Assembly: GCA_025062045.1 (NCBI GenBank)
Contig: JANXAF010000001.1
Coordinates: forward strand, 1-64,000
Source of the DNA: Thermodesulfobacteriota bacterium
GTDB lineage: Bacteria > Desulfobacterota > Syntrophorhabdia > Syntrophorhabdales > JANXAF01
Length of the DNA stretch: 64,000 nucleotides
Direction: 5' to 3'
In this document: piece after piece, positions 36,084 to 38,099 of the stretch
Layout: each line of letters opens with the position of its first letter
Position numbering within the stretch: position 1 is the first letter of the stretch
Made by a program: the position numbers and the translations under genes
The notes under the pieces: generated by a model
The model's database searches: none
The model's input: only the letters and a program-made list of their open reading frames with translations
What the model was told of the DNA's origin: nothing

Positions 36084-36377
36084 ATGAAGGTCAAAGTGAC
36101 ATTAAGCACGAATCTCGTACCTTCCGGATCTTCTTCGATTCCAAAAGAGATCGAGCTTCCAGGTGATAAAAATACTCTCCTTTCACTTCTTAAGATTCTA
36201 AACGAAAAGTTTCCTCACCTAAAGCTTATTGAGGACGAACATATGGGAGAAGACCTAAGGTACGTGTACCTAAACGGTGTTAGCCATTTTGAGCTTCCTT
36301 TGGGCTTGAAGACGCCTATCAGTGACTCAGACAAAGTACATGTGGAGATCTTCATGGAGCCACTTGCAGGAGGTTAA
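36084..36377 (+). CDS. MoaD/ThiS-family ubiquitin-like sulfur carrier
   Basis: 97 residues of beta-grasp type ending in EIFMEPLAGG. The C-terminal Gly-Gly is what is adenylated and thiocarboxylated in MoaD, ThiS and CysO. KEIELPGDKNTLLSLLKIL is the helix region. Family members carry sulfur for molybdopterin, thiamin, cysteine or tungsten cofactor. Next to IscU and an IscS homologue, it suggests a sulfur-transfer role. Fourteen bases separate it from iscU. Confidence 0.85.
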   Translation: MKVKVTLSTNLVPSGSSSIPKEIELPGDKNTLLSLLKILNEKFPHLKLIEDEHMGEDLRYVYLNGVSHFELPLGLKTPISDSDKVHVEIFMEPLAGG

Positions 36378-36391
36378 AAAAGGAGGAAAAG

Positions 36392-36901
36392 ATGGAGTAC
36401 ACTGAAAAAGTCCTCGACCATTTCAAAAATCCCAGAAATGTAGGTGTCATTGAAGATGCTGATGGAGTGGGTGAGGTTGGAAACCCTATCTGCGGGGATA
36501 TGATGAAGATTACGATAAAAGTTGAGGAAGAAAGGATAAAGGACATAAAATTCGTTACCTTTGGATGTGGTGCGGCAATTGCGGTATCCAGTATGGTTAC
36601 GGAGATGGCAAAGGGTAAAACTCTGGAAGAGGCTTTAAAAATCACAAATACAGAGGTAGCAGAAGCTTTAGGAGGACTTCCCAAGAATAAGCTTCACTGC
36701 TCAAATCTGGGAGCCGATGCGCTAAAAAAAGCGATAATGGACTACTACGAGAGAAAAACTGGGAAAAAGAAACAAAAGACCGAACCTTCCCATACAGAAT
36801 ACATAGGGGAAAGGGAAGGAACCTGTGTCTGTCCATATTGCGAAGAAAAGTTACCGAAAGATGTGCCTTTCTGTACTAAATGTGGAAGATTAATTAGTTA
36901 A
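36392..36901 (+). CDS. iscU: IscU/NifU-type Fe-S scaffold with C-terminal zinc ribbon
   Basis: 169 residues. The scaffold domain (1-125) keeps the three cluster cysteines and Asp: NPICGDMM, FGCGAAIAVSS and KLHCSNLGADAL. A charged linker (KKKQKTEPSHTEY) leads to a C-terminal zinc ribbon with CPYCEEKL and CTKCGRL (two CxxC). Standard IscU is about 128 residues and lacks the ribbon, while NifU has other added domains. It builds [2Fe-2S]/[4Fe-4S] clusters for transfer. AAAGGAGG precedes the ATG by 7-8 bases. Followed by the IscS homologue. Confidence 0.92.
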   Translation: MEYTEKVLDHFKNPRNVGVIEDADGVGEVGNPICGDMMKITIKVEEERIKDIKFVTFGCGAAIAVSSMVTEMAKGKTLEEALKITNTEVAEALGGLPKNKLHCSNLGADALKKAIMDYYERKTGKKKQKTEPSHTEYIGEREGTCVCPYCEEKLPKDVPFCTKCGRLIS

Positions 36902-36932: not shown

Positions 36933-38099
36933 ATGAACGTAATTTACCTCGACCACATATCTGCAAACCCGCTTCATCCAGAAGTAAAAAAAGCCATGAT
37001 CGAATACATCGAAACCGATGGGTTCGGCAACCCCCAAGGTCAACATAAAATAGGAGATAGGGCAAATGAGATTTTGGAGGCTCAAAGAGAAAAAGTTGCG
37101 GCTCTTATAGGAGCAAAACCAGAAGAGATAGTCTTCACTTCAGGCGGGACAGAGTCCACGAATCACGCGATAAAAGGTGTTGCCTTTGCTCTCCAGAAAA
37201 AAGGTAAACACATAATAACTTCCAATATTGAACACCAAGCCGTTTCTAGGCCATTGAGAGTTCTCATGAAGATGGGCTTCCACGTAACATCCGTAAGTGT
37301 TGATAGATATGGACTTGTAGATCCTGAAGATGTTAAAAAGGCCATAAGAAGCGACACGATTCTTATAACGATCATGCACGCCAATAACGAAATAGGAACC
37401 ATAGAACCTATAGCAGAGATAGGAAAAATAGCGAAAGAGCGGGGAATAGTTTTCCACACTGATGCCGTAGCCTCCTGCGGGAATATTCCAGTTAACGTGG
37501 ACGAACTGAACGTGGACCTTCTGAGTCTCTCTGCTAACCAGTTCTATGGGCCATCAGGAGTAGGTGCCCTCTACATAAGGCAAAAGACTCCGATCGTTCC
37601 AATTCTAGATGGGGGTATACAGGAAGGTGGAAGAAGGGCCGGAACGCACAACATGATTGGGATAGTTGGACTAGGGAAAGCTGCAGAACTAGCAATGATT
37701 GAGATGCCCCAAAGGATGGAAAAGTTGAAGTTTCTAAAGAAAGAGATGATAAAGAGGGTACTGGAGATAGAAGATGTGACAATAAACGGTCATCCAGAAC
37801 AGAGTCTTCCAGGGCTTCTTTCCTGTTCGTTCGATTATATAGAAGGAGAGTCCCTGATGCTTTTACTCGATGAGGCGGGAATATGTGTCTCAACGAGATC
37901 AGCCTGTGCCTCAGGTTCGCTTAGAGCATCCCATGTTTTAACAGCGATAGGACTCGACTATGTAAGGGCGCAGGGGACAATCATATTTTCCTTCGGGAGA
38001 GATAATACGATTGAGGATATAGAACGGACATTCGAGGCCTTGAAGAAGTCGGTTAACTTTTTAAGAGAGATGTCACCCCTTTATAAACGTAAGAAGTAG
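36933..38099 (+). CDS. IscS/NifS-family cysteine desulfurase homologue lacking the PLP lysine
   Basis: 388 residues, full length for class I desulfurases. Fold type I PLP segments: YLDHISANPLHPEV, VFTSGGTESTNHAIKG, the PLP-stacking His101 in SNIEHQAV, ANNEIGTIEPI, Asp177 in FHTDAVASCG, and the sulfur-accepting Cys325 in STRSACASGSLRASH. The Schiff-base site reads SANQFYGPSGVGALY: Gln203 replaces the Lys of the usual SAHKFYGPKG, and the neighbouring His is Asn. The Gln that normally follows the PLP Asp is Ala180. The reading frame is intact and the persulfide loop is kept, so this looks like a functional protein with altered chemistry. It resembles Archaeoglobus IscS, reported to lack this Lys. 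Probable partner of the adjacent IscU. Confidence 0.9.
   Translation: MNVIYLDHISANPLHPEVKKAMIEYIETDGFGNPQGQHKIGDRANEILEAQREKVAALIGAKPEEIVFTSGGTESTNHAIKGVAFALQKKGKHIITSNIEHQAVSRPLRVLMKMGFHVTSVSVDRYGLVDPEDVKKAIRSDTILITIMHANNEIGTIEPIAEIGKIAKERGIVFHTDAVASCGNIPVNVDELNVDLLSLSANQFYGPSGVGALYIRQKTPIVPILDGGIQEGGRRAGTHNMIGIVGLGKAAELAMIEMPQRMEKLKFLKKEMIKRVLEIEDVTINGHPEQSLPGLLSCSFDYIEGESLMLLLDEAGICVSTRSACASGSLRASHVLTAIGLDYVRAQGTIIFSFGRDNTIEDIERTFEALKKSVNFLREMSPLYKRKK

Follow-up and report, generated by a model that had tools for sequence, protein, structure and literature searches.

IscS is taught as the enzyme with which cellular sulfur traffic starts from cysteine, and in class I desulfurases a lysine is required for the internal aldimine. 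What, then, is the function of an IscS that has no such lysine? Proteins of this kind have previously been known from a few archaea, where they have been a puzzle. The question is raised here in a bacterium by a gene within the window, that is, the whole stretch of 64,000 nucleotides that was analysed, which comes from a Syntrophorhabdales genome assembly of 1.76 Mb (97% complete). Lysine-less IscS occurs intact beside IscU in many anaerobic bacteria and archaea, where its probable role is to hold or hand on sulfur that is made elsewhere, and the matter bears on how clusters are made in sulfide-rich, oxygen-free settings.

Residues lost and retained in the window protein

The first-pass annotation claimed an IscS homologue with glutamine in place of the PLP-binding lysine, and translation of the open reading frame at 36933-38099 agrees with it throughout. 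The motif reads SANQFYGPSGVG with Gln203 encoded by CAG at 37539-37541, the histidine before it has become Asn202, and the glutamine that follows the PLP aspartate has become Ala180 (DAVAS). His101, Asp177 and Cys325 (STRSACAS) are all kept, as had been stated, and the frame is open for 388 codons.

Table 1 Features of the lysine-less iscS locus, in window coordinates
Feature	Position	Strand	Basis
Lysine-less IscS homologue, 388 aa	36933..38099	+	profile matches, fold comparison
Gln203 (codon CAG) replacing PLP Schiff-base Lys	37539..37541	+	translation, homologue alignment
Asn202 replacing preceding His	37536..37538	+	translation, homologue alignment
Ala180 replacing PLP-binding Gln	37470..37472	+	translation, homologue alignment
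Cys325, retained persulfide/cluster-ligand Cys, flexible loop (324-328 pLDDT <50)	37905..37907	+	alignment, AlphaFold model
IscU/NifU_N scaffold partner, 169 aa, Cys and Asp ligands kept	36392..36901	+	PF01592 E 2e-53, ligand motifs
Zinc-ribbon-like C-terminal IscU tail, CxCPYC-x10-CxxC (Cys145, 147, 150, 161, 164)	36824..36883	+	PF13240 E 1e-5
MoaD/Urm1-like beta-grasp protein, Gly-Gly end, candidate sulfur carrier	36084..36377	+	fold match; TIGR01687 below cut-off

The protein has the class V aminotransferase fold, matching PF00266 at E 8e-79, above the Pfam cut-off. Its AlphaFold model (mean pLDDT 91) adopts the IscS fold with a disordered Cys loop at 324-328, and compares with E. coli IscS and human Nfs1 at TM 0.94-0.96 and with Archaeoglobus fulgidus IscS at TM 0.92-0.94. 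Its scores do not reach the equivalog thresholds of NCBIfam, either that of NifS (467 vs 531) or that of IscS (399 vs 643), the sole NCBIfam cut-off that the protein passes being that of the broad subfamily PRK02948 (316 vs 304). Of what defines a class I cysteine desulfurase, the class V fold and the persulfide cysteine on a mobile loop are present and the Schiff-base lysine, its histidine and the PLP-binding glutamine are missing. Without the lysine an internal aldimine cannot form, and the loss of PLP-lysine chemistry in this protein is well supported.

Conservation and ancestry of the lysine loss

Is this change confined to a single gene? In a de-duplicated set of homologues, Gln180, His202 and Lys203 are each found in 92 of 92 lysine-bearing proteins, and among the 54 lysine-less ones Gln180 occurs in none and His202 in 17, with His101, Asp177, Arg235 and Cys325 each kept in all 54 and Thr238 of the PLP pocket mostly retained. 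With residue 180 always and residue 202 mostly altered along with 203 in the lysine-less set, the change in the window is not a chance event at one site, and the joint loss of Gln180 and His202 suggests that the PLP site is no longer selected for catalysis. Position 203 itself is occupied in lysine-less relatives by Gln, Ser, Ala, Pro, Asp, Thr, Leu or Met. Within the Gln type, all 23 typed orthologues have Gln203 and none has lysine, so that the clade-wide conservation for which the first-pass annotation had proposed to look was found; 21 of them come from genomes of the order and two from others of the phylum, all in separate assemblies. Among the 46 Syntrophorhabdales genomes, these 21 have a typed orthologue and two more carry fragments at contig ends. 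The window comes from a draft assembly, which might have favoured a sequencing error or a decaying gene as the explanation, but this is ruled out for practical purposes by glutamine in 23 orthologues from independent assemblies, by two synonymous codons for it (CAG and CAA), by open frames, and by dN/dS values of 0.03-0.08 between Gln orthologues (from pairs with non-saturated silent sites only). The Gln-type IscS is under purifying selection.

When all loci are considered, the cysteine motif is present in all but one of the 89 distinct lysine-less sequences. The exception is a Gln-type IscS of one genome (L029 1498-2619, L044 5998-7119), a near-duplicate omitted from the set of 54, in which an in-frame deletion of 14 residues has removed the Cys325 loop and left the remainder intact.

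The trait extends to many bacteria and archaea and is thus wider than the first-pass annotation had it. Bacterial lysine-less IscS (with Gln, Ser, Ala, Pro or Thr) is found in Nitrospirota, Planctomycetota (Scalindua), Aerophobota, WOR-3 and Desulfobacterales, and the archaeal phylum searched holds Asp and Thr types. In a tree built without the trait columns the lysine-less proteins form three clades, one bacterial (48 rows, SH-aLRT 99), one archaeal with Asp (17 rows, 99), which includes the A. fulgidus protein, and one archaeal with Thr (five rows, 100), which resembles IscS1 of Methanosarcina acetivorans. In a more careful tree the Asp type is nested among archaeal proteins that bear the lysine (100/99); bacterial and archaeal lysine-less proteins were joined in 0% of bootstraps. 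Constraining the 54 lysine-less rows of that set to a single group lowers the log-likelihood by 36 units (p-AU 0.096), and holding the 52 bacterial rows together lowers it by 3.4 (AU p 0.22). With a distant outgroup the root of the careful tree fell within the lysine-less group; unrooted, its lysine side is one branch (96/98). Two to three origins of the loss are likely on these trees; a single origin is not favoured, though the AU test does not reject it. As the clade of A. fulgidus IscS2 sits beside lysine-bearing archaeal IscS, the archaeal loss was probably independent of the bacterial one (single-clade AU p 0.096). The likeness to the A. fulgidus protein drawn by the first-pass annotation is supported for mechanism; the two proteins are not close relatives and fall in separate clades.

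Gene neighbours and other sulfur genes

The claimed pairing with IscU is borne out: 31 bases separate the upstream iscU from iscS in the window, and iscU is adjacent in 20/20 window-type copies, in 12/12 copies of a second bacterial type described below, and in 17/17 Asp-type and 5/5 Thr-type archaeal ones. Every Syntrophorhabdales IscU that partners a Gln-type IscS has the five-cysteine tail, as do a few more distant proteins, and most other IscU proteins examined lack it. Ahead of iscU lies a MoaD-like protein of 97 residues, with 63-65% identity in two sister genera, whose AlphaFold model matches MoaD-related, Urm1 and SAMP1 structures. Of the carrier role given to it by the first-pass annotation, the Gly-Gly C-terminus and the MoaD/Urm1/SAMP fold speak in favour; as a general component it was dropped, since only three genera, all of one family, have it ahead of iscU. 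An upstream MFS gene was likewise dropped as a partner, as it does not adjoin the pair in two family relatives. Elsewhere a MoaE-like gene lies immediately 3' of a Gln-type iscS (L045 3954-4304), and a membrane protein gene of PF03601 (Cons_hypoth698) is divergent from iscU-iscS in several Syntrophorhabdaceae loci (by Pfam at L044 3737-5359 and L046 3763-5298, by likeness at L043 3763-5295).

How much of cluster assembly rests on such pairs? Five class V proteins of full length are encoded in the window genome, and the window IscS is one of them. Another, at C4:156670, is a second lysine-less IscS (SSHLIHGPKG, with Leu) with a second IscU directly after it; this second type (L127 6632-7870, G000:C4) has a seven-residue insert after the cysteine motif (SACASNIFAKSEVG) that is common across the order, where its lysine position is Gln, Leu or Met. 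The search for a lysine-bearing desulfurase that had been proposed found two (L001 and L002), this class V pair consisting of a NifS-like protein and a TIGR01977 protein; the fifth is a distant aminotransferase. Both lysine-bearing genes are unlinked and have no IscU neighbour, and with them present the sulfur might in the end still come from cysteine, in trans. The NifS-like gene L002 (G000:C1:126278-127366) follows genes for a NIL-domain ferredoxin and a UPF0280 protein, and its type (SDMVQA, HKxYAPKG) is conserved, without IscU, in relatives. NifU_N (PF01592) has two matches in the window genome, each next to a lysine-less IscS. The genome has no SufB/D core (control genomes were positive in 14/14 cases) and no match to the A-type carrier/IscA family (PF01521); it does encode an Mrp-type ParA protein. 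In two relatives of the family (96-98% complete) there are two IscU each and no SufB/D; in one of them both adjoin a lysine-less IscS (Gln and Met), and the other has its second IscU on its own, with no nearby IscS gene (L123 1584-1994, G002:C44). Lysine-less IscS accompanies nearly all IscU scaffolds found in one bacterial family; further families of the order have an additional long NifU with a lysine-bearing NifS.

Outside the window type, sulfur-carrier genes are frequent neighbours of lysine-less IscS. These were called as TusA (PF01206) or DsrE-type (PF02635/PF13686) genes on the same strand within 2.5 kb, with Pfam confirmation for a sample. TusA and/or DsrE are found in the operon at 12 of 15 other bacterial loci, 16 of 17 archaeal Asp-type loci and four of five Thr-type loci, and beside one of 91 lysine-bearing loci, where a two-domain TusA-DsrE protein adjoins a type II desulfurase-like gene (L166). 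Over non-redundant loci the proportions are 32/58 and 2/92 (Fisher, p 2e-14, relatedness uncorrected); an independent-pairs test yields two starred pairs only and has no power, because lysine has been lost only about three times. At one locus the protein shares 99.7% identity with the crystallised A. fulgidus IscS, the genome (G191) presumably being of that species, and a DsrE gene ends just upstream; a paralogue has TusA plus DsrE alongside. One exception to the rule is a distant lysine-bearing relative from an archaeon (L294 3987-5336), which keeps His-Lys, has Asp for the PLP glutamine and adjoins TusA, DsrE and IscU; it is possibly an intermediate. No same-operon TusA/DsrE was found at the window-type loci (0/14) or beside those of the second type (0/7), and the window family instead has the MoaD-like protein beside the pair. 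The window genome holds two TusA genes, both in other contexts and unlinked to IscS-IscU, and no DrsE_2. One TusA gene (L204, G000:C7:70866-71072 and upstream) comes right after a gene for a YeeE-like membrane transporter, with which it may form an uptake pair for thiosulfate or selenium, and its product is an unlinked candidate sulfur carrier.

Proposed role, significance and known systems

The suggestion of the first-pass annotation, a cluster-assembly system that does without classical PLP desulfuration, is supported in part. The preferred reading, with a probability of roughly 60%, is that the window protein is an IscS without desulfurase function, which relays to IscU, or presents to it, sulfur supplied from outside. 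Of IscS it would have kept the half that docks and bears the Cys loop, with its dimer fold, mobile Cys325 loop and IscU pairing, and dropped the half that cuts cysteine. Sulfur would arrive from outside as a carrier persulfide (from TusA/DsrE in most relatives) or as sulfide, Cys325 would hold it or act as a cluster ligand, and the cluster would thereby be built on IscU. Candidate donors for the window pair are the MoaD-like protein, an unlinked TusA, a lysine-bearing desulfurase acting in trans, and sulfide itself. Such a relay, with its sulfur source, its direction of transfer and a persulfide on Cys325, is what we infer from Lys203 and Gln180 being always replaced and His202 mostly, from the retained Cys325, from purifying selection, from the constant adjacency of iscU, from both IscU of the window genome lying beside a lysine-less IscS with neither SufB/D nor IscA, and from the carrier genes at the loci of relatives. 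The reported inactivity of A. fulgidus IscS as a desulfurase, and the ligand that it gives to the cluster, also speak for it. An IscS-TusA contact does exist, since Cys328 of E. coli IscS lies about 4 A from Cys19 of TusA (PMC2854127). Against the relay stand the lack of adjacent TusA/DsrE in the window and second types, the lysine-bearing desulfurases in the genome, the carriers beside lysine-bearing L294, and the Cys-loop loss in L029/L044, which is a misfit with an essential Cys325.

Could the protein act without passing sulfur on at all? It may be a structural partner only, lending a cysteine ligand and shielding the nascent cluster as in the published A. fulgidus model, with sulfide reaching IscU directly and no persulfide relay. 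This deserves a hearing even if it is unlikely: in the complex reported for A. fulgidus IscS and IscU a cysteine of IscS serves as ligand (PMC7585200), H2S restores IscU cluster synthesis in E. coli lacking IscS (PMC13015791), and the window pair has no TusA/DsrE at its side; it leaves unexplained, however, why such genes stand beside lysine-less IscS in three clades and hardly ever beside lysine-bearing IscS. Much less probable is a regulatory or chaperone pseudoenzyme that keeps IscU stable or is a competitor of an active desulfurase (L001 or L002), the latter being the real donor. The genome does hold these two enzymes, but neither has an IscU neighbour, the L002 type also lacks an adjacent carrier gene, and a pseudoenzyme sits badly with the near-universal Cys325 (88/89 distinct sequences). 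That the protein is still a PLP enzyme, through another residue or non-covalent PLP, is very improbable: His101, Asp177 and mostly Thr238 remain, which may also be structural, yet the eight residue types at 203 offer no conserved substitute and Gln180 is always lost. Extended to all such proteins, the relay reading becomes tentative and rather doubtful as a whole: lysine-less IscS might be convergent adaptors for sulfur relay in which the IscS-TusA contact works in reverse, from carrier persulfide to clusters on IscU, and in the window family the sole IscU/SUF-type scaffold system, fed by the MoaD-like carrier, an unlinked TusA or sulfide.

What is added here is a bacterial clade, a genome in which the pairing is exclusive, an IscU tail resembling a zinc ribbon, and the linkage to carrier genes. 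None of these, nor any link of lysine-less IscS with TusA/DsrE, is reported in the accessible papers, which were searched by title, abstract and selected passages. Lysine loss marks a large bacterial clade and is IscU-adjacent in all three clades, with carrier genes for many members, and this linkage suggests, in concrete and testable form, where such systems obtain their sulfur.

Among known systems, A. fulgidus IscS2 (PDB 4eb5, 4hvk; Asp199) shares with the window protein the fold, the missing lysine and glutamine, the change of histidine to asparagine, the retained Cys loop and the adjacent iscU. It differs in sequence (44-46% identity), in Asp rather than Gln, in its archaeal clade beside lysine-bearing IscS, and in an adjacent carrier gene, of which the window has none. 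For that protein PMC7585200, citing Pagnier 2014 and Marinoni 2012, reports no desulfurase activity and a cysteine ligand lent to the cluster on IscU. In the same source, M. acetivorans IscS1-IscU1 likewise pairs a lysine-less IscS with an IscU longer than usual (24.2 kDa there), as in the window; the matching SACFS-type archaeal proteins found here have Thr, unlike the window Gln, and four genes of unknown function neighbour the pair there, compared with TusA and DsrE in the Methanosarcina-like genomes here. The minimal ISC system, or MIS (PMC12192291, PMC12442378), consists of IscS and IscU without A-type carriers, as does the window genome (PF01592 two matches, PF01521 none), but its IscS is described as a cysteine desulfurase, whereas both IscU-paired IscS here lack the catalytic lysine. 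The E. coli IscS-TusA relay (PMC2854127) involves the same two families and a Cys-to-Cys contact; there sulfur passes from IscS to TusA, whereas for lysine-less IscS the reverse direction is proposed.
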